Position numbers and translations under genes: made by a program
Source: an uncultured Clostridia bacterium
GTDB taxonomy: Bacteria > Bacillota > Clostridia > Oscillospirales > Oscillospiraceae
Direction: 5' to 3'
Assembly (NCBI GenBank): GCA_946407675.1
Contig: CAMJPK010000002.1
Coordinates: 1-57,490, forward strand
DNA length: 57,490 nt
Notes under the pieces: generated by a model
Told to the model about the DNA's origin: nothing
The model's database searches: none
The model's input: only the letters and a program-made list of their open reading frames with translations
In this document: positions 26,932 to 39,095 of the stretch, one piece after another
How positions within the stretch are numbered: position 1 is the stretch's first letter
How the letters are laid out: each line of letters begins with the position of its first letter

Positions 26932-28182
26932 TCAGCGCTTGCGCATTGCCAGCTGGCGCAGCTTCAGATCGGTGCGGTAAAAGTCCTTGTAGGTGCAGCC
27001 GGCACGGCCGCCCCCGGCGCAGGCGCAGGCGCAGGCGCACGCGCACGACGCGCAGGCGCAGGCACAGGAGCTGTGCGCGCAGCCGCCGCCGCGGGAGGAC
27101 CCGCCGCCGCTGCTGCGGGAGGAGACATGGTGCACCACCGGGATGTTGACCACGTTGACGCGGACATAGGTGTCCGGTGCGGAGGAATAGCGGTATTCGC
27201 CCTTGGTCTTGTACTTCAAGGCCTCCTTGTCCTCGTCGGGCACGTTTTCTTCCTTGATGACCTCCTCGCTCTTCACAAAGCTGCGGCCACAGTGGGCGCA
27301 GACGGTCTCCCCCTCGCCGCGGGGCGCGCCGCAGCCCTGGCAGACCGGGTAATAGGTGACCTTGGTGCGGGTGATCTTGGTCTTGGTCTCGCCGCCGAAG
27401 CTCGCGCTGCGGCGGTAGGCCTTCTTTGCCTTGCGGATCAGCAGGATCGGCAGCCCGACGAAGATGAGCAGGAACATCAGCCCGCCGAAGGCGGCCATGC
27501 CGTCATTGTCGGAGCTGTCCTGGTAATCGTAATACTCGCCGCTCCGGTCGCCGGGATTGTAGATGGCCTTGCTGTCGTTGAAGGCGCGGGCTTCGTTGGG
27601 ATAATTGACCGTGATCTGGTACGTGCCGCCGGGGGCGAGCGAGGTCGTCCAGACGTTGTAGCCGTCCTTGACAAGGCAATCCGGCGACCAGCTGGCGAGG
27701 TCCTCGCTGTTCCAGCGCACCGTCAGATTGTCGACCGCGATCTCGTCGAACCAGCCGGGCGTGAAGACATAGGCGGTCTGCCCCTCCTGAAAGAGGTTCA
27801 TCTGATACATATAGTCCTGCACCACGAGATAGTCGAAGCTGACGGTCTCGCCGGCGCGGTAGGACCGGTCGAGGTCGACGCGCACGCTGCTGCCGGATTC
27901 GGTGGAATAGCCGATGGAGGCGATCGTGTCGCTCAAGGGCCGGATCTCCACATACTCCCCGTTCGGGATGCCGACGGTGACCCATTCCAGCGCGCCGATG
28001 TCGTCGCGCAGGACCTTCCAGTCGATGTGGTAGTGCAGATTCACCGTGCCGTCCTCGTTGACATCGGCGGTGATCTCGTAATTGACGATCTCGTCCGTGG
28101 GGTCGGAAGCGCCGGCCGGCGTGCACAGCAGCACAAGGCACAGCAGCAGCGCCAGCGCAAATGCAATGCGGTTGCGTTTCAT
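26932..28182 (-). CDS. Membrane protein with zinc ribbon and cytoplasmic Cys-Ala repeat tail
   Basis: This 416-residue protein has a signal peptide (1-25), an extracytoplasmic beta domain (about 28-215) resembling DUF2207 N-domains, one membrane helix (about 230-250), a zinc ribbon (C281/C284/C295/C298), a Ser/Gly linker, and a striking tail at 368-396: CAHSS, CACACAS, CACACACACA, GGGRAGC. This gives ten cysteines, mostly alternating with alanine. A short basic end follows. The topology puts the tail in the cytosol. The ATG shares one base with the stop codon of the radical-SAM gene, so the two proteins are made together; the tail is a candidate substrate for that enzyme. Function is unknown. 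Confidence 0.85.
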   Translation of the reverse strand: MKRNRIAFALALLLCLVLLCTPAGASDPTDEIVNYEITADVNEDGTVNLHYHIDWKVLRDDIGALEWVTVGIPNGEYVEIRPLSDTIASIGYSTESGSSVRVDLDRSYRAGETVSFDYLVVQDYMYQMNLFQEGQTAYVFTPGWFDEIAVDNLTVRWNSEDLASWSPDCLVKDGYNVWTTSLAPGGTYQITVNYPNEARAFNDSKAIYNPGDRSGEYYDYQDSSDNDGMAAFGGLMFLLIFVGLPILLIRKAKKAYRRSASFGGETKTKITRTKVTYYPVCQGCGAPRGEGETVCAHCGRSFVKSEEVIKEENVPDEDKEALKYKTKGEYRYSSAPDTYVRVNVVNIPVVHHVSSRSSGGGSSRGGGCAHSSCACACASCACACACACAGGGRAGCTYKDFYRTDLKLRQLAMRKR

Positions 28183-29561
28183 CAGCACGCGCCTCCTTCC
28201 GTTCTGCCGCGGCGCAGCGGGCACACGCCGAGCATCTTTGCGCTCTCCGCGCGGCGCGCCCTGCACGCCTCGCTGTCCCAAATGGCAGCCCAGTCGTCCG
28301 TCAGCAGGTTGCCGAGGACGTCGGAGGAAAGCCAGCTCTGGCAGGGCACGACATTGCCGCCGGGCGTCACCGCCATGTTGCTCAGGCAGGCGCCGCAGCT
28401 CGGGACGCTGATGCCCAGCTCCTCGCAGAATTCCGGCTCCACCCAGCCGGGCGATGTGAAGCTGATCTCCATGCCGTTGGCGTAGCAGTATTCCACCGCC
28501 TCGCGCAGCACGGCCTTGATCTCCTCCGTCGTCAGCTGGAGCGCCTCGGAGGGCGCCGTCGCCGCCGCGCCGGTCGTGATGAGCCCGGAGCAGGTGACGT
28601 AGCGCACGCCCTTGCCGTGCAGGAACTCCAGCGTGGCGCGGTAATCCCGGTTCTTCGTGCACAGCGGCGTGTTGACGCTGAGGTTCAGCCCCGCGGCGAG
28701 GGCGTTTTCAATGCCCGCCACGGTATGCGCGTAGCCCTCCGCGCCCACCAGCGCGTTGTGGACCGCCGCATCGGCACTGTAAAAGGTGATCTGTAAGCTG
28801 TCCAGCGAGGCAGCGCGCAGGGCCTCGCACAGCTCGCTCGTCAGCGCAACGCCGTTGGTGTTCAGCCGCGTGACGAACCATGCCGCATGCTCGATGAGCT
28901 CCGGCAGGTCCTCGCGCAGCGTCGGCTCGCCGCCGGTGAAGGTGAGCTGCGGGATGCAGGCCTCCCGGCAGCGGTCGATGATCTGCTTCCACTGTTGCGT
29001 GGAAAGTTCCGTCTCCTCCGCGCAGGGCTGCCCCGCCGCATAGCAGTGGACGCACTTCTGGTTGCAGTGCCACTGTCCGTTGCGTGTCATGGCGCTGACC
29101 ATCAGATCCATGCGGTGCGGCGCGCGCATCTGCGGCGCATAGTCGCCCATGCTCAGGATCGGGATATCCTCATCCGGCATCTCGCCCTTTGCGATCTGGC
29201 GAAACGCGTTCATGATCCGGTAGATGTCCGATCGGATCAGCTTTCCGCTCAAAAGCGGGTAGACCTTCCGGACCTCCTTGATCGTCGCGCGCAGGATCTG
29301 CTCCACGTCATCGTCGCTGACCGGGCGTCCGGCATAGCGGTTGACCTCCTCGATGAAGCAGACGAGCAAAATGCTCCACGCCGTACCGACCGGGATGATG
29401 TCCTGTCCGTTGAGGATCGCGGCGCTCATGCCGTCCCCGTCCGGGCGCGGCGGCACCAGATGGATGCGGACGACGCCGGGGCCCTCCGGGTTCAGCGTCG
29501 TGTGCTGAACGCCGGTGAAGCGTTCCCGCAGAAAGCGCGCCTCGCGCTGTTGAATACTCAC
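28182..29561 (-). CDS. Radical SAM/SPASM protein with an extra N-terminal domain
   Basis: This protein of about 460 residues has the radical-SAM cluster motif WHCNQKCVHCY (C168/C172/C175 counted from the ATG at 29567), TFTGGEPTLRED (about 209-220), and a SPASM-type C-terminus with cysteines near 391, 394, 409, 435, 449 and 461. About 150 residues before the core form an additional helical domain. AAGGAGG abuts the ATG at 29567, so the GTG at 29561, 7 bases downstream of the site, is the likelier start. It is fourth in the aldehyde-oxidoreductase operon. It may modify the Cys-Ala protein, or help mature the tungsten enzyme, as known for some radical-SAM genes beside such enzymes. Confidence 0.88.
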   Translation of the reverse strand: MSIQQREARFLRERFTGVQHTTLNPEGPGVVRIHLVPPRPDGDGMSAAILNGQDIIPVGTAWSILLVCFIEEVNRYAGRPVSDDDVEQILRATIKEVRKVYPLLSGKLIRSDIYRIMNAFRQIAKGEMPDEDIPILSMGDYAPQMRAPHRMDLMVSAMTRNGQWHCNQKCVHCYAAGQPCAEETELSTQQWKQIIDRCREACIPQLTFTGGEPTLREDLPELIEHAAWFVTRLNTNGVALTSELCEALRAASLDSLQITFYSADAAVHNALVGAEGYAHTVAGIENALAAGLNLSVNTPLCTKNRDYRATLEFLHGKGVRYVTCSGLITTGAAATAPSEALQLTTEEIKAVLREAVEYCYANGMEISFTSPGWVEPEFCEELGISVPSCGACLSNMAVTPGGNVVPCQSWLSSDVLGNLLTDDWAAIWDSEACRARRAESAKMLGVCPLRRGRTEGGAC

Positions 29562-29576
29562 AGGCATACCTCCTTT

Positions 29577-31238
29577 TTATGCACGCAGGGAGGCGATCAG
29601 GCGGCGGAAATCCTCTCTGCCCCATACCACCGGCACGGGATAGAGCGGGTTGGCCTCCTTGAGCGCCCAGGTGATGATCTGCTCCACATCCTTGTCCTGG
29701 ATCATGTCCGCGCCGACGGGGATCTCCATTTCGCGCTTCATGTCCTCGATCCAGCGGATGAAGTTTTCCGCCTTTTCCGCGTTGTCCGCCCCGCCGATTC
29801 CGCAGACGTCCGCGAGGTCGGCAAGCTTTGCGTGCGCGGCCGGGCCGAACTGGCGCATGACATGGGGCAGGATAATGCTCATGGCCAGGCCGTGCGGCAC
29901 GCCGTAGAGCCCGCCGAGCGTATGGCCGGTGGCGTGGACGTAGCCGACGCAGCCGCGCGTGAACGCACGCCCCGCGAAGAAGGCAGCGCGCTGCATGCTC
30001 TGTCGCGCCGCGAGATCGCCGCCGTCGTGATAGGCCCGCAGCAGGTTTTCATGGATGAGCTGTACGGCCTCCTTGGCGAGCTTATCCTCCAACGGCGTAT
30101 TGTAGGTGTGGTTCGTATAGGCCTCGACCGCGTGGCACAGCGCGTCCATGCCCGTCGTGGCGGTGACAAAGGGCGGCAGGCCCATGGTCAGCTCCGGGTC
30201 CAGAATGGCGTACTTCGGCAAGATGCTCGGGTCGTTGATGCTGGCCTTGTGATGCGTGGCGCTGTCGGTGATGACGGCAGCCACGGTGGTCTCCGAGCCG
30301 GTGCCGGAGGTGGTCGGGATGGCGAAGAACAGCGGGATCTTGTGATGCACCTTCAGGATGCCCTGCAGCTGCGCAACGCTCTTGCGCGGGTGCACCGCCT
30401 TGGCTGCAATGGCCTTGGCGCAATCCATCGGCGCGCCGCCGCCGAAGGCGACGAGGCACTGGCAGTCGTTCTCCCGCCAGACGCGGAAGCCGGCCTCCAC
30501 GTTGTCGCTCGTGGGGTTCACGGCGATGTCGGAGAAGATGTGGAAATCAAAGCCCGCTTCCCGGAGGGAATCCAGCATCTTATCCAGCAATCCGAGCTTC
30601 ATCAGATTCGCGTCCGTGACGACAAGCACCTTTTCCGCGCCCTTTTCGCGCATGAACTCCGGCAGGCGCCGGATGCTGCCGGGCCCCTCGATGTACTCCG
30701 GCATGCGGTAGCCCATGAAATAGTTGGCGACCTTCATGACCGCTTGAAATGTCCTGCACCATACCTTTGACACGATGCTCGCTCCTTTTCCCCCGATGTT
30801 CTCAAATACGGCGCTCTCGCCGGTCTTTACCATGGTGATCGCGCGGATCGGACAGACCTTCGCGCATGTGCCGCAGCCGATGCATTCCACCGGCGCGCGC
30901 AGCGCCGCGATGGTGCGGATGTCGCCGCGCTTTTTCGGGCGGGTGATCGTCAGGCAGTCCGCCGGACAGTTGGTCACGCACACCGAGCAGCCCGCGCAGC
31001 GCATCGGGTCGATCGCCGGCTTTTCCCAGTCGCTTTTCGGCGTTTTTTTGGCGATATTTCCCGCAGGATCGACGATCGCGCCCTTGGCGCAGAGCCGCCC
31101 GCACAGTCCGCAGCCGACGCATTTGTCCGCGTCGATGCGGTGGCGCTCCTTCAGCGTGCCGCTGATCGCGCCGACCGGGCAGTTCTTCGCGCACAGCGTA
31201 CAGCCGATGCAGTTTTCGTTGATCGAATAAGCTCCCAT
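29577..31238 (-). CDS. Polyferredoxin-iron alcohol dehydrogenase fusion
   Basis: This 553-residue fusion has four ferredoxin motifs in its first 135 residues: CIGCTLCAKNCP, CVGCGLCGRLC, CAGCSVCVTNCP and CIGCGTCAKVCP, enough for four [4Fe-4S] clusters. After a linker, residues about 170-553 are a group III iron-dependent alcohol dehydrogenase with GGGAPMDCAKA (nucleotide binding), TTSGTGSE, and the metal site MDALCHAVE plus GHTLGGLYGVPHG. The frame is continuous with no sign of error. It sits 4 bases after the MoaD-like gene. With the neighbouring aldehyde oxidoreductase it could link ferredoxin electrons to alcohol/aldehyde interconversion. Confidence 0.93.
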   Translation of the reverse strand: MGAYSINENCIGCTLCAKNCPVGAISGTLKERHRIDADKCVGCGLCGRLCAKGAIVDPAGNIAKKTPKSDWEKPAIDPMRCAGCSVCVTNCPADCLTITRPKKRGDIRTIAALRAPVECIGCGTCAKVCPIRAITMVKTGESAVFENIGGKGASIVSKVWCRTFQAVMKVANYFMGYRMPEYIEGPGSIRRLPEFMREKGAEKVLVVTDANLMKLGLLDKMLDSLREAGFDFHIFSDIAVNPTSDNVEAGFRVWRENDCQCLVAFGGGAPMDCAKAIAAKAVHPRKSVAQLQGILKVHHKIPLFFAIPTTSGTGSETTVAAVITDSATHHKASINDPSILPKYAILDPELTMGLPPFVTATTGMDALCHAVEAYTNHTYNTPLEDKLAKEAVQLIHENLLRAYHDGGDLAARQSMQRAAFFAGRAFTRGCVGYVHATGHTLGGLYGVPHGLAMSIILPHVMRQFGPAAHAKLADLADVCGIGGADNAEKAENFIRWIEDMKREMEIPVGADMIQDKDVEQIITWALKEANPLYPVPVVWGREDFRRLIASLRA

Positions 31239-31242
31239 CTCT

Positions 31243-31497
31243 TTACCCTCCGCACACCGGCGACATGAGCCAGACCTCGTCGCCGTCGGAAAGGCGGCTC
31301 GTTTTTTTCCCCTGTTTGCCGTTGATGACCACGATGCAGCCGTCGATGTCCGCCGCCGTGATCTTCGTGTCTGGGTTGGCGCGCTTCGCCGCGTCCAGCA
31401 GCGCCGGATACAGCGTTTTCACATCGCCGGCCTCGGCGTCGAGCTCCTTTAAGCCCGTGTCCAGCCGCAGGAGGCCGAACAGCTTCACATGCACCAT
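31243..31497 (-). CDS. MoaD/ThiS-family sulfur-carrier protein
   Basis: This 84-residue ubiquitin-like protein ends in SPVCGG, the C-terminal Gly-Gly that is activated to a thiocarboxylate in MoaD. GDEVWLMSPVCGG and VVINGK fit the family. Its ribosome site GGAGGAAC overlaps the stop codon of the aldehyde oxidoreductase, so translation is coupled. The likely job is to donate sulfur for the dithiolene of the tungsten-pterin cofactor used by that enzyme. Confidence 0.92.
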   Translation of the reverse strand: MVHVKLFGLLRLDTGLKELDAEAGDVKTLYPALLDAAKRANPDTKITAADIDGCIVVINGKQGKKTSRLSDGDEVWLMSPVCGG

Positions 31498-31510
31498 GCT
31501 TTGTTCCTCC

Positions 31511-33442
31511 TCATGCGATGATTTTCAGTTTTTTCAGCGTCCGCTGCGTCGGAATGCCGTTCGCATCCCAGCCGCGGGCGCGGTAATAGGTCTTCTTCAT
31601 CTGTTCCAGCGGCACCTTCGTCTTCGGGTCATTGGGGTCCTGCGGCACGTCGGTCAGGCGCTTGGGCAGTGTGTCGACCTTCGCGCTTGCGCCGAAGCGG
31701 ACATCCACCCAGCGCTCCAGCGTATAGCCCCGCTCCCCGCAGCGCATGTACTTGCCGAAGGTCATCGGCATGCCGGTGGCGTACTGCACGCCGCGCGTGT
31801 GGTGGAAGACCGGGAGGTGCAGCGCCAGCGCCAGCGGGAACTTGTTCATCGCGCGCACGGCCCAGCCGATGAAGGGGATCGCAGCGTTGGCGACGCGGGT
31901 GATGGCCCCGTTGGGGCGCGTGATGAGGATGCCGGGGAAGAAGGCGTAGGAGGTAAAGAGGCACTGGCCTGTCGCGGAGATCATCTCCATGAGGTCCTGG
32001 AACATCATCGTGAAGTCCGCCTTCGCGTGGGGCGTCTGCGCGTTTGTATTGAGGCCGAGGCCCTCCAGTATAACGAGGTAGCCGCCGTTGAGGTGGCAGC
32101 CGCCGCGGTTCGAGACCGCGTAGCCGAGGCCCTGCCCCACGGCGCGCCGCGGCTCGTAGGCCGCGAGCTCCAGCCCCTTGGACTGGATCGCGAATTCCAG
32201 CCCGCCGTATTTTTCGGCCAGCCGCTTGCTGCCGAGCGCCAGCTCGGCGCCCACGCCGCGGCGATAGGCGATGTCCTCAAACAGCCGGCTCAGGCCGTCG
32301 GTTTTGCCGAAGGCTAGGCCATTGTCCCAAAGCCCCTTCTCATTGGCCTCCATCGCCCACGCGACGGTGCTGGCGCAGGAGATCGTGTCCATGCCCAGCT
32401 CGTCAAGCTCGTTGTTCCAGCGCAGGATCTTCTCCAGATCGTTGTTCAAAATGCCGCCGCCGAGCAGGCCCAGCGTCTCCAGCTCCGGGCCCTTGACCTC
32501 GCGCCCGTCAACGCTGACGGTGCGCGCGCACTTGATCGGGCAGGTCAGGCAGCCCTTGTTGACGATGTTCTGCTCCTCGGCCAGCGTCTCGCCGTTGACC
32601 AGCTCGAAGTCGTCATAGCGGCCGTAGGTATAATTCTTCGTGGAGAGCATGCCGCGCATCTGCATCGAGCTCACGAGCCCGGCCGTGCCGAGGCGCGGGA
32701 GCTGGTTGCCGGTCAGCGGATGGCGGCGCAGATAGTCGAACCACTTGGCGTTCCAGCGGGCGTTCTTTTCCGGGTTGAACACGCGAAATTCGTGGTTGCC
32801 CGTGACGGCGATGCCCTTGAGGTTCTTCCAGCCGAACACGGCGCCCACGCCGGTGCGTCCCGCGGCGCGCTCGCCGCTGATGACCGCGCTGTAAAGCACC
32901 TGGTTCTCCCCCGCCGGGCCGATCACCATCTGCCCAAAGCCGCGCACCTTGCCCCACGCGGCGGTCAGGAGCTCCGTGATCTTCTCCTGCGCGGGCGTGA
33001 CCTTCAGCCCCCACAGCCCGTCCTCGTCCGCGCTGCGGAAGGTGAAGCGGTCGTTCTCGATGACAAGCCAGCTGCGCGCGGCGCAGCGTCCCTTGAGGAT
33101 CAGCGCATCCAATCCGGCGCGCTTGAGGTAATAGCCGAAGCTGCCGCCGCAGTTGGAGGAGGTGATGTAGCCGGTCTGGGGCGAGAGCGTGGAGAGGTTG
33201 AAACGCCCGGACGACGGCGCGCCGGTGCCGGTCAGCGGCCCGGTCGTGATGACGATGAGGTTCTCCTCGGAAAAGGGCGTTTCCGCCCCGGTCAGGTTGT
33301 CACAGAGGATCTTCGCGGCCATGATCTTGCCGCCGATAAACAGCTTGCGCTGCGCATCGGTCCACGGATATTCGCTGACCGTCTGCGCCGTCAGATCGAC
33401 GAGCGCGACCTTTCCCATATAGCCGCCGAGGGATGTGGACAC
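31511..33442 (-). CDS. aor: Tungsten-dependent aldehyde:ferredoxin oxidoreductase
   Basis: This enzyme of 643 residues oxidises aldehydes to acids with ferredoxin, or reduces acids under strong reducing conditions. Features are GPLTGTGAPSSGRF (pterin binding), the cluster cysteines C298/C301/C305 (KGCLTCPIKC) and C494 (TGQCLFT), and GPELETLG. The start is a GTG 9 bases after AGGAGG, although most of these genes use ATG. It is first of five genes transcribed together and has a strong promoter. The substrate range cannot be told from sequence. Confidence 0.95.
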   Translation of the reverse strand: MSTSLGGYMGKVALVDLTAQTVSEYPWTDAQRKLFIGGKIMAAKILCDNLTGAETPFSEENLIVITTGPLTGTGAPSSGRFNLSTLSPQTGYITSSNCGGSFGYYLKRAGLDALILKGRCAARSWLVIENDRFTFRSADEDGLWGLKVTPAQEKITELLTAAWGKVRGFGQMVIGPAGENQVLYSAVISGERAAGRTGVGAVFGWKNLKGIAVTGNHEFRVFNPEKNARWNAKWFDYLRRHPLTGNQLPRLGTAGLVSSMQMRGMLSTKNYTYGRYDDFELVNGETLAEEQNIVNKGCLTCPIKCARTVSVDGREVKGPELETLGLLGGGILNNDLEKILRWNNELDELGMDTISCASTVAWAMEANEKGLWDNGLAFGKTDGLSRLFEDIAYRRGVGAELALGSKRLAEKYGGLEFAIQSKGLELAAYEPRRAVGQGLGYAVSNRGGCHLNGGYLVILEGLGLNTNAQTPHAKADFTMMFQDLMEMISATGQCLFTSYAFFPGILITRPNGAITRVANAAIPFIGWAVRAMNKFPLALALHLPVFHHTRGVQYATGMPMTFGKYMRCGERGYTLERWVDVRFGASAKVDTLPKRLTDVPQDPNDPKTKVPLEQMKKTYYRARGWDANGIPTQRTLKKLKIIA

Positions 33443-34065: not shown

Positions 34066-34452
34066 TCAGCAAAACTTTTCGATGGCCTTCTGGAATTCCT
34101 CGATGGCCTGCATATCCCCGTCCTGCACCGCGTGGGTAATGCAGTGGGTGATGTGCTCGTTGATGATCTCCTTGCCGAGCCCCGTCAGGGCGCTGCGCGT
34201 GGCGGACAGCTGCATCAGCACGTCCGCGCAGTCCTGATCCTCCTCGATCATCCGCTTGACGTGCTGCAGGTGGCCGATGACGCGGGAAAGGCGGTTGAGC
34301 TGCCGTTTCTTCTCCTCCGGGGAATGGTGGTGCGAGAGGTGGTGGTGGTGCGCCGCCTCCGCCTCCGCGCGGTCCAGCTCGTCGAACTCGTCTATGTGCG
34401 TGTGCGTATGCTCATGCGCGTGGTCATATGCGTGTTCATGTTCGTGTTCCAT
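34066..34452 (-). CDS. csoR: CsoR/RcnR-family metal-sensing repressor with a His-rich N-terminal arm
   Basis: This 128-residue DUF156 repressor shows the copper-site pattern C-x24-H-x3-C (from QDCADVL to NEHITHC), as in CsoR. The core begins at EEKKRQLNRLSRVIGHLQHV. Ahead of it is a 45-residue arm rich in His and acidic residues (MEHEHEHAYDHAHEH and AAHHHHLSHHHS), unusual for CsoR and more like a nickel or cobalt buffer. Autoregulation is likely because a C6G6 palindrome abuts its promoter. No copper ATPase gene is adjacent. The metal could be copper or nickel. Confidence 0.9.
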   Translation of the reverse strand: MEHEHEHAYDHAHEHTHTHIDEFDELDRAEAEAAHHHHLSHHHSPEEKKRQLNRLSRVIGHLQHVKRMIEEDQDCADVLMQLSATRSALTGLGKEIINEHITHCITHAVQDGDMQAIEEFQKAIEKFC

Positions 34453-34478
34453 CGGTCCACCGCCTTTCGATTTGAAAC

Positions 34479-34520
34479 AGTATAGTGGATTTCCCTGCGT
34501 TTCGCAAGCCCCCCGGGGGG
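34479..34520 (-). promoter_or_regulatory. csoR promoter with GC-rich operator
   Basis: On the minus strand TTGCGA (34507-34502), a 17-base spacer and TATACT (34484-34479). One base upstream of the -35 box lies CCCCCCGGGGGG (34509-34520), flanked by TAA and CTT. It resembles the G-tract palindromes bound by CsoR/RcnR repressors and touches the stop codon of the DUF3786 gene. Confidence 0.75.
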
Positions 34521-35129
34521 TTACCATCTCCCCTTCATCGCGTTTAAGAGCACGTCGCCGACGACGGCGATGTCCTCCGCGCTGAAGGCCGAAGAGAAGT
34601 TGTCGGAAAAGAGGATCTGCGCCGCGGCACGGAACTCCTCGTCCCCCTCCCAGAGGATGAGGCGGACGGTGAGCCCTTCGAGAAACGGCAGGTCGTAGGA
34701 GCGGTCGCCGCTGTCGGCTTTGACGCCCGCGACACGCGCCGCGGCGGCGTCAAAGCCGGGGAGATTGCTGCCGTAGGTCCCGGCCAGCCGCAAAATGCAG
34801 CGGCCGCGGAACTGCTGCGCGTAGACGTTGCCCCAGGGCATGTCCGTGTAAGCCAGCAGCTTCCCCGCGGAGGCCACCAGCGTGCCCTCCAGAATGAGGC
34901 GGGCCAGCAGAATGCGCGTGTTGGAGGCAGTCTGCGTCCCGTCATCGGCAAAGCGGGATTCCATCTCCGGCCACGAAACCGTCACCGGGCGGCCCAGCAG
35001 CGTCAGAGAAAACTTTCCATCCGCATAGGGCACGCAGCTGCGCTGCGAAAGCGCCTCCGGGTCCGCCGCCGCGAAGACGGCCTTGTAGTGCTCCATCGGC
35101 ACACCGACCTTGTTGTCGACAACTTCCAT
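34521..35129 (-). CDS. DUF3786 protein
   Basis: This 202-residue soluble protein has conserved DUF3786-like stretches: GRPVTVSWPEME, ARLILEGTLV, FRGRCILRLAGTYG and LWEGDEEFRAAAQILFSDNFSSAFSAEDIAVVGD. The family is commonly found near corrinoid or Wood-Ljungdahl genes; its role is not defined. It lies 19 bases after the ASKHA corrinoid activator and is the last gene of the acs operon. Confidence 0.8.
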   Translation of the reverse strand: MEVVDNKVGVPMEHYKAVFAAADPEALSQRSCVPYADGKFSLTLLGRPVTVSWPEMESRFADDGTQTASNTRILLARLILEGTLVASAGKLLAYTDMPWGNVYAQQFRGRCILRLAGTYGSNLPGFDAAAARVAGVKADSGDRSYDLPFLEGLTVRLILWEGDEEFRAAAQILFSDNFSSAFSAEDIAVVGDVLLNAMKGRW

Positions 35130-35148
35130 TGAATCTCGTTCTCCTGTG

Positions 35149-36822
35149 TCAGTCGAAAAGATGCGCGTCCGTGTGCGGCACGAAGCAGGCCGCGACGAAC
35201 TCGTCCATATAGCCGGGGTGGGTAGACAGCTCGATGTAGGTCATGTTCCGCCCGATCTCGAAGACCTTCTCCGCGGCCTCGTCGGACAGGAGCATCGCGC
35301 AGGCGCCGGTCAGGGAGGAGTTGCCGATGTAGCTGTACTTCGTGAGCTCCTGGCGCGGCAGCATGCCGATGGAGATGGCCTTGCCGATGTCGATGCCGCT
35401 GCCGATGCCGCCGGCGATGATGATCTTGTCGATGTCGTCGACCGTCATGTCAAGCGATTTCAGCATCGTGCGGATGGCGGAGAAGATGGCCGCCTTGGCG
35501 CGGATGAAGTTGTCCAGATCGCTCTCGTCCAGCGTGATGTCGCTGCCCGTGGCGCTCTCGTCGGCAAAGGCGAGGACGTAGGCCGCGCCGCCGTACTGGT
35601 CGTAGCGCACGCGCTTCCCCTCGCGGACAAACTTGCCCTGCGCGTTGATGATGCCGCAGCGGAACAGCTCGCTGATGATGGCGATGAGGCCGCTGCCGCA
35701 AAGGCCCATCGGCTTGTCGCCGTCGATGATGGAGAGCGTCGGCTCCATGGTCTCGGGGTCGATGGTGCAGGAATCCACCGCGCCGTGGGTGGCGCGCATG
35801 CCGCAGCTGATGTCGCCGCCCTCAAAGGCAGGGCCGGCGGAGCAGGCGCAGCAGAGCATGTAGTCCTCGTTGCCGAACACCAGCTCGCCGTTGGTGCCCA
35901 GGTCGATGAACAGCGCCATCTCGCCGGAATGCCACAGCATGGCCGGCAGCACGCCCGCGCTGATGTCGCCGCCGACGTAGCTGCCGACGTTGGGCGCGAA
36001 GATCACCGGCGCGTCCGCCTTTGCGGGCAGGCCGAGCTCGCCCGCCGTTTTGCCGTGCAGCTCCAGAAACTCCGGCACGTAGGGCTCCAGGCGGATGGTC
36101 TGCGCATCCGCGCCGACGAAGAGGTGCTCCATCGTGGTGTTGCCCGCGATGACGATGCGGCTGATGTCCTCCGGCTTTTTGTCCGCGCCGCGGCACAGGC
36201 TTTCAAAAATGGGGATCAGCGTCTCCTCGCGGACGGCGTGGCGCAGCCGCTCGACGCCGCCGGGTTTTGACTGCTGGATGATACGGTTGATGACGTCCGC
36301 GCCGAAGCGGATCTGCCCGTTGCCCATGCTGGCCTTGGCCAGCACATGGCCGGTGGCGAGGTCGAGCATGGCGGCGGTGACCGTCGTGGTGCCGATGTCG
36401 ACCGCGACGCCGACGCCGGTCTCCTGCACGCCGCGGGCGATCCCGGAGGAAAAGATTTCCTCCGTCATGGCCTCGTAGCGGGCCAACTCCTCCGGGGAGC
36501 TGAGGTCGGCGGTCTTGATGTTGTTGCGGAAGGCGCTGGCGGACATGGGCACCCAGATCACGGCGTCGCCGTGCACCTTGCTCTGGCAGGCCAGGCGCCA
36601 CTGGGCGTCAAAGTCCTCCTGCGAAAGGTGCGGGTTTTTCTCCACCTCCAGCGCGCCGGAGATCAGCTTCACGCGGCATTTGCCGCAGGTACCGTTGCCG
36701 GCGCAGGGCGCGTCGATGGCGACGCCGATGCGGCGTGCCAGCTCCAGCAGGTTTTCGCCCTGTTCGGCCTGCGTCTTGACGTCCGCGCCGCCCTCTACCT
36801 TAAACACAATCGTATATGCCAT
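35149..36822 (-). CDS. acsV: Corrinoid-protein reductive activator (ferredoxin + ASKHA domain)
   Basis: This 557-residue protein has an N-terminal [2Fe-2S] ferredoxin domain (about 1-95) with CAGNGTCGKC and a later CQSK, then an ASKHA ATPase core (about 140-555) with VAVDIGTTTVTAAMLD, IAGNTTMEHLFVG, FIDLGTNGELV and AGGIGSGIDIGKA. Such activators (RACo/AcsV/RamA type) use ATP to drive reduction of inactive Co(II) to Co(I) in the corrinoid iron-sulfur protein, whose subunit genes lie upstream in this operon. AAGGAG precedes the ATG. The symbol is assigned by context. Confidence 0.92.
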   Translation of the reverse strand: MAYTIVFKVEGGADVKTQAEQGENLLELARRIGVAIDAPCAGNGTCGKCRVKLISGALEVEKNPHLSQEDFDAQWRLACQSKVHGDAVIWVPMSASAFRNNIKTADLSSPEELARYEAMTEEIFSSGIARGVQETGVGVAVDIGTTTVTAAMLDLATGHVLAKASMGNGQIRFGADVINRIIQQSKPGGVERLRHAVREETLIPIFESLCRGADKKPEDISRIVIAGNTTMEHLFVGADAQTIRLEPYVPEFLELHGKTAGELGLPAKADAPVIFAPNVGSYVGGDISAGVLPAMLWHSGEMALFIDLGTNGELVFGNEDYMLCCACSAGPAFEGGDISCGMRATHGAVDSCTIDPETMEPTLSIIDGDKPMGLCGSGLIAIISELFRCGIINAQGKFVREGKRVRYDQYGGAAYVLAFADESATGSDITLDESDLDNFIRAKAAIFSAIRTMLKSLDMTVDDIDKIIIAGGIGSGIDIGKAISIGMLPRQELTKYSYIGNSSLTGACAMLLSDEAAEKVFEIGRNMTYIELSTHPGYMDEFVAACFVPHTDAHLFD

Positions 36823-36904
36823 GGGAACAACTCCTTTTTCCAAGGATGATCGCACATGCCGCCTTCCCCCCTGGCATGTGCCGTCATCCTTTTCAGTTTT
36901 GAAA

Positions 36905-36936
36905 TGCCCCGGGAAAGCCGGTGCTTTCCCGGGGCA
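36905..36936 (-). terminator. Hairpin after acsB (partial terminator or processing site)
   Basis: The 13-bp stem TGCCCCGGGAAAG/CTTTCCCGGGGCA with a 6-base loop lies in the 134-base gap between acsB and acsV. Only a weak T-run (ATTTC) follows, so it may reduce rather than stop downstream expression. Confidence 0.6.
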
Positions 36937-36956
36937 AACGCTGTTTTCAGGTTCGA

Positions 36957-39095
36957 TCACATGATGGGATCCATGTTCAGGACGGGATGGCCCTTCTCGG
37001 TCAGGAAAGCGACCAGCTCCTCCGGATCCGTGGTGATGGTCTCATCGGCGATCATGTCGGTGAAGTTGTCGATGCCGTAGAGCTCCTTGGCGGTCTTGTT
37101 GATCTTCGGCGCCAGATCGTCCTTCAGCTCCTTGGTCATCCACACGATGCGCTCGAGGCCGCCCTCGGCGCGGATGAACTTCTTCGACGCGACAAAGTTG
37201 CGGCCGTGGCCCATGAAGCCCGGGGTCTGAACGCCGCCGCCGGTCATGCTCGCGAGCTCGCCGAAGGGCATGCCCGTGGGCGTCATGCCCGTGTACTCAC
37301 GGTTGACGATCACGACGCCGCCGCTCATCGGCTCAATGCCGCAGATGCACTCGAAGCAGCCGCAGGAGGTCATCGGGTCCTCGATCAGCGAGTACAGCGT
37401 GACCTTCTCCATCGCGCCGTGGGTCGCCTCTGCGACGGCCTGGTTGACAGTCTCGTAAGCGCCGAGGCGCTCGTCCGTGCAGCCGGTCTTGGCGATCGGA
37501 CGGCTCGGGCCGGTCGGGGCCAGCTGGTAGGACGCCTTGGCGTCCAGCCAGGAAACGGCGCCGCACAGGCCGAGGCGCTCCGGGGTGACCACGCAGCAGT
37601 GGCTCGGGGCAAAGCTCTGGCACAGCGTGCAGGTGTAGAAGGTGTCGACGCTCTCGTCGGTCAGTGCGGCGAGACGGTCGTCACGCGCGCGGTAGCGCGG
37701 GAAGCAGACCTCGTCCAGCGCCTTCTCGACCGCGGCGGTGTCGGTGCAGATGGTGATCTCGCACTTGTCGACGACCTCGCCGAAGTCGGTGCGGATCATG
37801 GAATAGAGCACCTCGCCGAAGTCCTTCAGACGCAGGCCGCGCTCCCAGCTCGACTTGCTGATGCGGATGCGCAGCAGGTTGCGCTGGCCGGTGTGCATGA
37901 CGCCTTCCATATAGTTGTACCAGGTGTGGATCTTGCGCTCGATGACGGGCTCAAAGTCGGGCTGCATCTTGGCGCCGCCGACGTTGACCAGCGTGGCGAT
38001 GGACATGCGGATCAGCTCATCGCTCGTCTCGGGAACCTCCGGTCCGAGAATGGTGATCTTGTGGTCCTCGATCTCTTCGACCGGCTTCATGGTGACGAGC
38101 TCGGCGGTCTTGCTGTGGTCGGAATCGAACTCGACGTAGGTGTCCTTCTTGCGGATGATCTCGCCCTCGAAGGCGGCGGCGAAGCCGACCGGCAGAGAGA
38201 CGGCCTTGGGCTTGACGTGGATGTTGCGCAGCTCGAGGGACTTCTCGACCATCTTGCTGTGGTCGGTCTCGGAGACCAGCGCGCCGGGGACCTGCAGGTC
38301 GCCCAGGTCGATGTCGGGGATCACGGGGAAGCCGAGGGCGATGGCGCCCGCACCGGCGGAGACCGTGATGGCATCCAGTGCGCCGAAGGTGTTCACGAAG
38401 GCGGGCACGCGGTCCTTGGTGTACTGCAGCAGCGCACCGAGATCGCCGGGCGTCACGGCGCCGAAGATCAGCGCCGCGCGGACCGCGACGGTCACGACGT
38501 GGATGACGCTGGTGATGCCGTGGCCCAGGGGCACGACACGGAACTCAAGGCCCATGCGGACGCCCTGCTCCGCCAGCTGCTCGATGACGTCGCCGACCAG
38601 GAAGGACAAAATGCCCTTGTCCTGATAGTCGCGGACGACGGCAGCGGCGTCGGCGGCGTTGTCGGCCTTGCCGATGACGACGGCCACGCCGGGGATATCG
38701 CCGGTGACGAGGGGGACGCCGAGGGAACGGATGACGGCGTCGGGCACGAAGCCGATGCCGCTCTCGTTCTCGTACGGGTTCGGGCTCTCAACATACTTCA
38801 GCAGCTCAAGGATCTCCGCGCCGACGGCGGTGGCCAGGCCGGCGTTCAGCGCCGCGCCCAGGTCCTCCTGCCCGGTGATGAGGCTCTTGAGCACACCCAC
38901 ACAGGCGGGCAGGTCGCCCAGCGTCTTTACCTTTACGCCGGTGGCGGCGTAGATGGTCGGGGCAAAGTAGCCGGTCTCGGGGAATGCCGCTCTCGCGTCC
39001 GCGCCGTACTTTTCGATGGCGGCGTTGACGCTCTGCTCGGTCAGGTCAGCGACCGTGTTGGAACCCTGGTAAATCAAATCAATCAGTGCGCTCAT
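36957..39095 (-). CDS. acsB: Acetyl-CoA synthase, catalytic subunit of the CODH/ACS complex
   Basis: This 712-residue enzyme builds acetyl-CoA from CO, a methyl group and CoA. The A-cluster ligands are all present with the spacing of the Moorella enzyme: C489, C492, C501 and C511 in YTCTLCQSFAPSHCC and LGLCG for the cubane, and C578-G-C580 in SCGCFEC for the distal nickel. The partner CO dehydrogenase gene (acsA) is not within the window. It is fifth in the operon starting at acsF. Length is slightly below the 729 residues of the Moorella protein. Confidence 0.97.
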   Translation of the reverse strand: MSALIDLIYQGSNTVADLTEQSVNAAIEKYGADARAAFPETGYFAPTIYAATGVKVKTLGDLPACVGVLKSLITGQEDLGAALNAGLATAVGAEILELLKYVESPNPYENESGIGFVPDAVIRSLGVPLVTGDIPGVAVVIGKADNAADAAAVVRDYQDKGILSFLVGDVIEQLAEQGVRMGLEFRVVPLGHGITSVIHVVTVAVRAALIFGAVTPGDLGALLQYTKDRVPAFVNTFGALDAITVSAGAGAIALGFPVIPDIDLGDLQVPGALVSETDHSKMVEKSLELRNIHVKPKAVSLPVGFAAAFEGEIIRKKDTYVEFDSDHSKTAELVTMKPVEEIEDHKITILGPEVPETSDELIRMSIATLVNVGGAKMQPDFEPVIERKIHTWYNYMEGVMHTGQRNLLRIRISKSSWERGLRLKDFGEVLYSMIRTDFGEVVDKCEITICTDTAAVEKALDEVCFPRYRARDDRLAALTDESVDTFYTCTLCQSFAPSHCCVVTPERLGLCGAVSWLDAKASYQLAPTGPSRPIAKTGCTDERLGAYETVNQAVAEATHGAMEKVTLYSLIEDPMTSCGCFECICGIEPMSGGVVIVNREYTGMTPTGMPFGELASMTGGGVQTPGFMGHGRNFVASKKFIRAEGGLERIVWMTKELKDDLAPKINKTAKELYGIDNFTDMIADETITTDPEELVAFLTEKGHPVLNMDPIM

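Follow-up and report, generated by a model that had tools for sequence, protein, structure and literature searches.

What does a run of alternating cysteine and alanine do at the end of a bacterial membrane protein, and is the radical-SAM gene beside it part of the answer? The question is raised by a 416-residue protein encoded in the window, by which we mean the whole 57,490-nucleotide stretch of DNA analysed here. Its predicted cytoplasmic tail is CAHSSCACACASCACACACACAGGGRAGC, in which residues 368-396 read CAHSS-CACACAS-CACACACACA-GGGRAGC. This segment holds 10 of the 17 cysteines of the protein (positions 368, 373, 375, 377, 380, 382, 384, 386, 388 and 396). The features of the protein and of the adjoining enzyme are the following.

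26932-28182, minus strand: coding sequence of the (Cys-Ala)n-tailed membrane protein, 416 aa (sequence and homologues)
28105-28182, minus strand: signal peptide, about residues 1-26 (MKRNR...AGAS), with an inferred cleavage site (hydrophobic stretch at residues 6-24 and alignment)
27598-28095, minus strand: beta-rich outer domain, about residues 30-195, DUF2207-like (AlphaFold; Pfam DUF2207 below threshold)
27436-27492, minus strand: single transmembrane helix, residues 231-249 (C-terminal side positively charged; AlphaFold helix 235-258)
27289-27342, minus strand: zinc-ribbon-like CxxC-CxxC, C281/C284/C295/C298 (alignment; many homologues are without it)
26995-27081, minus strand: Cys-Ala tail, residues 368-396, ten Cys (sequence and conservation)
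26935-26994, minus strand: C-terminal follower TYKDFYRTDLKLRQLAMRKR after the tail (alignment)
28182-29567, minus strand: radical-SAM/SPASM enzyme, 461 aa (Pfam Radical_SAM 4.2e-19, SPASM 5.1e-7; co-occurrence; fold)
29190-29510, minus strand: N-terminal domain of the enzyme, about residues 20-126, four strands then three helices (secondary structure)
29043-29066, minus strand: CX3CX2C radical-SAM cluster motif, C168/C172/C175, invariant (alignment)
28221-28397, minus strand: shortened SPASM domain with invariant C391/C394/C409/C435/C449 (Pfam, residues 391-449, and alignment)

The first-pass annotation had placed a ten-cysteine Cys-Ala tail at 26990-27078. The tail is real, and its exact span (26995-27081, minus strand) is only a few bases off. 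The signal peptide, the single membrane helix and the zinc ribbon that it had described are present as well, the ribbon with Cys 281, 284, 295 and 298 in the window protein; the location of the tail inside the cell is predicted from the charges that flank the helix (-5 before, +6 after) together with the signal peptide. A Ser/Gly linker separates the CxxC/CxxC ribbon from the tail. The ribbon is missing in many homologues and is not essential; in the homologue L009 Pfam gives a sub-threshold match to Zn_ribbon_3. The follower contains an (S/T)xKDFY motif, kept in most homologues of the alignment, and this motif is possibly a recognition element. With DUF2207 (PF09972) the window protein reaches E 0.081 and 13.6 bits, below the cut-off of 24.4, it has no match to TIGR04222 in NCBIfam, and neither Pfam nor NCBIfam has a specific model for the membrane protein or for its enzyme. 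Fold matches of the outer domain to aminopeptidase N-terminal domains and oligosaccharyltransferase subunits were weak (query TM 0.22-0.33) and were set aside.

Conservation of the Cys-Ala pattern

Taken alone, the tail in the window could be a DNA repeat, since its alanines are encoded by a mix of GCC and GCG and nine of its ten cysteines by TGC. The first-pass annotation had proposed, as a check, to ask whether the pattern is conserved despite varied codons, and the answer is clear: across 22 homologous tails, with a sequence GC content of 31-65%, all six Cys and Ala codons are used (TGC 104, TGT 70, GCC 88, GCG 32, GCA 25, GCT 23). The amino-acid difference was 0-5% in the tail versus 18-64% in the remainder in seven of eight homologue pairs, and the tail difference was 16% in the eighth (L034/L035). 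Synonymous codon differences, tail versus remainder, were 28 v 27, 33 v 30, 42 v 54, 41 v 52, 59 v 59, 56 v 49 and 67 v 54%; the exception is the G440 tandem pair, in which the synonymous difference was lower in the tail (11 v 51%). The homologues differ in the length of their longest CA run (3 to 6 units); one copy has Tyr replacing Cys and one carries a Gly insert. Because the amino acids are nearly fixed while the synonymous differences are similar in both parts, these alignments indicate that the Cys-Ala pattern is held at the protein level, far beyond chance. We also considered, and rejected, that the genome of the window holds a paralogue of the tail: its only other (CA)4 match, on contig C40, falls at the beginning of a 90-codon frame and is overlapped by larger frames on both strands.

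The radical-SAM/SPASM enzyme as partner of the tail

The start codon of the membrane-protein gene shares its A with the TGA stop codon of the radical-SAM gene (TGATG). How constant is this partnership? A tail profile and a full-length enzyme profile were run over the identical set of 391 Clostridia genomes, many of which are draft assemblies. The two profiles matched exactly the same 11 genomes, from eight families (G000, G327, G395, G434, G440, G498, G509, G517, G547, G559 and G577), with enzyme scores of 216-809 bits. By a hand estimate (1/391-choose-11) the chance of such agreement is about 1 in 10^21, the true figure being weaker since the genomes are related. The link to a radical-SAM enzyme, suggested in the first-pass annotation, is therefore borne out by this set, in which the enzyme is the constant partner of the tail. 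The family to which the window belongs and Lachnospiraceae MAGs from the rumen hold further pairs of tail and enzyme. A scan of genome contigs confirmed only four loci, perhaps as a result of tblastn re-scoring, and the searches therefore relied on profiles run over whole genomes.

Where the tail and enzyme genes share a contig in the loci read, they are adjacent, in either order, except in G517 (L036), where they lie about 2.3 kb apart on the same strand with other ORFs between them. The two matches are on separate contigs in G395, G434 and G577; in G434 the enzyme is followed by the gene for a relative that the contig end truncates within its Gly-rich linker. The first-pass annotation had named homologues beside the same enzyme without tail cysteines as a refutation of its reading; a search for them found none wherever the tail was readable. 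Two loci have two tail proteins beside one enzyme gene (L033:7782-9709 and L012:4444-7081), and in L012 a 246-codon ORF without family match lies between them.

We also scanned 399 genomes of the phylum for a (Cys-Ala)4 DNA pattern, independently of the enzyme, and 17 of them contained it. Fourteen listed loci were read in all frames and other f134 tails separately, several places in G710, G765 and G961 being left out. Among the loci examined, the in-frame C-terminal tails of long ORFs adjoin the enzyme family; the remaining matches consist of TGTGCY/TGCGCY repeats and nothing else, or lie in frames that hold no credible gene. BLAST gave no match to the tail on phages or plasmids, a search in which the low-complexity filter may hide it. 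Plasmids gave no match to the enzyme either.

Only the enzyme and the tail protein, among the genes of the window, recur across families. The genes upstream of the enzyme (31243-33442 and 29577-31238) encode an aldehyde ferredoxin oxidoreductase, a MoaD/ThiS-like protein and a ferredoxin-fused Fe-alcohol dehydrogenase, and a consensus promoter-like site is found at 33525-33497 (minus strand). This operon was considered as a functional partner and rejected; in the loci read it adjoins the pair only in the window's genus, and its genes are therefore placed outside the system. Positions 34066-36960 encode a CsoR/RicR-type metal-sensitive repressor, a DUF3786 protein and an AcsV-like protein, the last with 772.6 bits in the AcsV corrinoid-activation model, just under the cut-off of 800. 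Among the loci compared, the CsoR gene and the other neighbours are seen again only within the genus of the window.

The enzyme belongs to the radical-SAM superfamily with a SPASM domain (PF04055, 69.8 bits against a cut-off of 29.5; PF13186, 30.3 bits against 21.5). A SPASM domain usually has seven cysteines, in the canonical arrangement CX9-15GX4C...CX2CX5CX3C...C. The window enzyme departs from it: C394-x9-G404-x4-C409 is present, and otherwise only C391, C435 and C449 are invariant. The closest folds to its AlphaFold model (mean pLDDT 82) are SuiB, then SkfB and CteB. All three are peptide maturases, of which SkfB and CteB form thioether links and SuiB makes a C-C bond. The best NCBIfam models are NirJ2 at the top, followed by a pseudo-SAM family, AhbD, archaeal MoaA and PqqE, all far below their cut-offs; the position of the enzyme in its family thus does not, by itself, indicate a peptide maturase. 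The N-terminal domain is possibly a peptide-recognition (RRE-like) domain, judging by the structural model, and a sequence search of solved structures with this domain gave no significant match.

The enzyme profile, run over the 399 phylum genomes, reached further enzyme groups, the (ACHS)n group having first been seen in the class search. These related enzymes adjoin related membrane proteins with other Cys repeats, namely CVSCACACVSCACACACA, SSCACACACACASSGGCT and (ACHS)n, and the profile scores by tail type are 336-362 bits for CVSCACACVSCACACACAGG, 190-211 bits for SSCACACACACASSGGCT and about 140-165 bits for (ACHS)n. Enzymes of groups f134/f197 pair with tails such as GCYCVSCACACVSCACACACAGGRGAGC. 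In loci L066-L068 and L070-L074 the enzyme adjoins the CVSCACACVSCACACACAGG tail protein, and both the N-terminal enzyme domain and the outer domain are homologous to those of the main group (hhalign E 4.4e-26 for the enzyme domain); the tails of L069 (masked by N) and L075 (contig end) were not fully readable. Enzymes of f93/f98 pair with proteins ending GGSSCACACACACASSGGCT or GGSCACACACACAGGGGCT, and the N-terminal domain of the f93 enzyme is more weakly homologous to that of f134 (73% probability); in L076, L077, L078 and L079 the extreme C-terminus of the partner is CACACACACASSGGCT (or ...GGGGCT), with no follower. Finally, f11, f53, f57 and f152 enzymes pair with (ACHS/ACHD)n...ACVSGGAR tails. 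Where the neighbours of low-scoring enzyme matches were read (5 of 14 at class level and two at phylum level), an (ACHS)n tail was found in seven of seven. Five other low-scoring phylum matches (L081, L082 and L084-L086) have no such tail; being shorter and lacking the N-terminal domain, they seem to belong to another radical-SAM family. By hhalign, the partner proteins are homologous to each other (main-f134, E 1.2e-49; main-f93, E 4.9e-21; f93 partner versus full (ACHS)n protein, E 1.5e-9 over 356 columns). Since each enzyme group pairs with its own tail and the partner proteins are related, the comparison indicates that enzyme subgroup and tail repeat vary together.

Several observations were made in passing at these loci. 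Of the four f93/f98 loci, three contain an additional ORF downstream, with VENVTGLVTIDSD-type sequence. In L118, a radical-SAM/SPASM enzyme lies beside a membrane protein ending (ACHS/ACHD)nACVSGGAR (L118:1907-3637 and L118:3541-4962); the same pair is seen in L119, L120, L052, L053, L056, L057, L060, L080 and L083, and a third conserved membrane-protein gene lies downstream of it in the loci read.

Possible modification of the tail

If tail and enzyme belong together, what does one do to the other? From their partnership, the conservation of the tail and its co-variation with the enzyme, we infer that the tail is probably the substrate of the enzyme. The two genes would then form a system in which the radical-SAM/SPASM enzyme (28182-29567) serves as a maturase dedicated to the adjoining membrane protein, and modifies the cysteines of the cytoplasmic Cys-Ala tail while the protein stays anchored in the membrane. 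The fixed pattern of the cysteines makes them the most likely residues to be modified. Thioether links would join the sulfur of Cys to backbone positions of Ala, Ser or Gly within the tail, and the product would be a compact or rigid sulfur-rich cap below the membrane. We favour thioethers because a known sactisynthase forms them between Cys and Ala (PMC8188230) and Ala alternates with Cys here, and we propose this specific chemistry tentatively; the strict C-A alternation, which does not point to a particular cross-link register, counts against it. As for the role of such a cap, one might guess at a sensor, or at a metal or redox site coupled to the outer domain.

The tail might also be modified without thioethers, for example by another Cys-derived heterocycle, by epimerised Ala or Ser, or by a C-C link. 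This reading overlaps with the previous one, and we regard it as a real possibility, though not as the likelier outcome. SPASM enzymes catalyse many reactions, and the fold search gave SuiB besides SkfB and CteB. TIGR04222 proteins with Cys-rich ends have moreover been proposed as substrates of MNIO enzymes (PMC12452194). Nothing specific argues against it, except that invariant Cys and Ala suit thioether donors and acceptors.

We consider it unlikely that the tail is left unmodified and, being rich in thiols, stores metal or sulfur (Zn, Cu or an Fe-S precursor) at the cytoplasmic side of the membrane, with the enzyme acting elsewhere in the same pathway or drawing sulfur or clusters from the tail. 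Its CxC runs do resemble metallothionein motifs, the same protein contains a CxxC/CxxC ribbon, and the gene for a CsoR-type metal-sensitive repressor lies in the window at 34066-34527. However, no partner other than the enzyme was seen to be constant, and a different type of tail repeat comes with a different enzyme subgroup, whereas CsoR and its neighbourhood stay confined to one genus among the loci compared. More improbable again is a tail that serves as a RiPP core and leaves the cell as a peptide once it has been cut off the membrane protein. For RiPPs it is usual to find a Cys-rich core next to a radical-SAM gene, and this arrangement is matched here, but the precursor would be a full-size protein with a signal peptide, a conserved outer domain and a membrane helix, and of the genes in the window only those for enzyme and tail protein recur across families. 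Neutral expansion of a DNA repeat, for which one could cite the TGCGCC-like units in a GC-rich genome and the non-coding (TGYGCN)n repeats found in other genomes, is refuted by the codon comparison, in which synonymous sites vary freely at 31-65% GC while the amino-acid pattern is almost fixed.

Radical-SAM maturases are known mostly from small peptide products. The likely substrate here is the tail of a full-length membrane protein, near letter-for-letter constant across families while the remainder diverges, and its modification would, if true, be a little-explored way to alter cysteines in a full-sized membrane protein. Our literature search on Cys-Ala repeats and radical-SAM enzymes found nothing relevant; most subscription papers lay outside it, and a prior description is possible. 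A radical-SAM maturase with a Cys-rich substrate is a known kind of system, and what is most likely new is that the substrate is a whole membrane protein. The set of CACACA, CVSCACACVSC, SSCACACACACASSGGCT and ACHS provides matched pairs of enzyme group and repeat for studying how repeats are read. It also suggests that anaerobes, including some that live in the rumen, have a function for modified proteins that is still unexplored.

Comparison with known systems

Among the closest named NCBIfam models are the heme-synthesis enzymes AhbC, AhbD and NirJ, with NirJ2 at the top. However, NirJ2, AhbD and AhbC score 79-95 bits against cut-offs of 500-650, the window enzyme has an extra N-terminal domain, and no heme genes were seen beside it. 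The DUF2207 predicted membrane proteins (PF09972) share a weakly similar N-terminal outer domain, but the similarity stays below the cut-off and their definition includes neither a Cys-Ala tail nor an enzyme partnership. The ACGX system (TIGR04340) likewise has a radical-SAM/SPASM enzyme, paired by its name with a Cys-containing repeat; with 45.5 bits against a cut-off of 400, the window enzyme falls far short of that model.

A further comparison is with the sactipeptide and ranthipeptide maturases (SkfB, CteB, RumMC, PapB). They too combine a radical-SAM domain with a SPASM-type auxiliary cluster domain, their dedicated gene lies beside that of a Cys-rich candidate substrate, as it does here, and the best folds for the window enzyme (SuiB, SkfB, CteB) come from peptide maturases. 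In contrast to their small leader-plus-core precursors, the candidate substrates here are about 300-440 aa long, with a signal peptide and a membrane helix; the window enzyme, moreover, has fewer SPASM cysteines and no specific NCBIfam model.

The nearest published parallel is found among the TIGR04222 proteins and MNIO, an oxygen-using iron enzyme. Part of the TIGR04222 membrane proteins, which have an outer domain, membrane helices and, at the C-terminus, a low-complexity sequence that contains Cys, with tails predicted to be periplasmic, have been proposed as substrates of MNIO (DUF692) enzymes, and these enzymes change cysteines in bufferins (PMC12452194). The likeness extends to the large outer domain, the membrane helix, the Cys-bearing low-complexity C-terminus and the adjacent gene for a Cys-modifying enzyme, and an (ACHS)n relative weakly matches TIGR04222 (24.1 bits, cut-off 43). 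The systems differ in that the enzyme here is a radical-SAM protein and the tails are predicted to be cytoplasmic, not periplasmic. The MNIO family (PF05114) is absent from 16 of the 17 genomes that carry the systems described here, the sole match being L117 (G498:C11:6374-6934). It is an attractive idea, by analogy, that radical-SAM enzymes fill the role of MNIO in anaerobes. One may even speculate, with some reserve, that a DUF2207/TIGR04222-like superfamily carries C-terminal Cys-repeat tails that enzymes turn into a special sulfur structure, radical-SAM enzymes doing so in anaerobic Bacillota and MNIO in other bacteria. If so, it would be a protein modification of a general kind, through which a membrane protein gains a sulfur cofactor or polymer of its own, and not a natural-product pathway.
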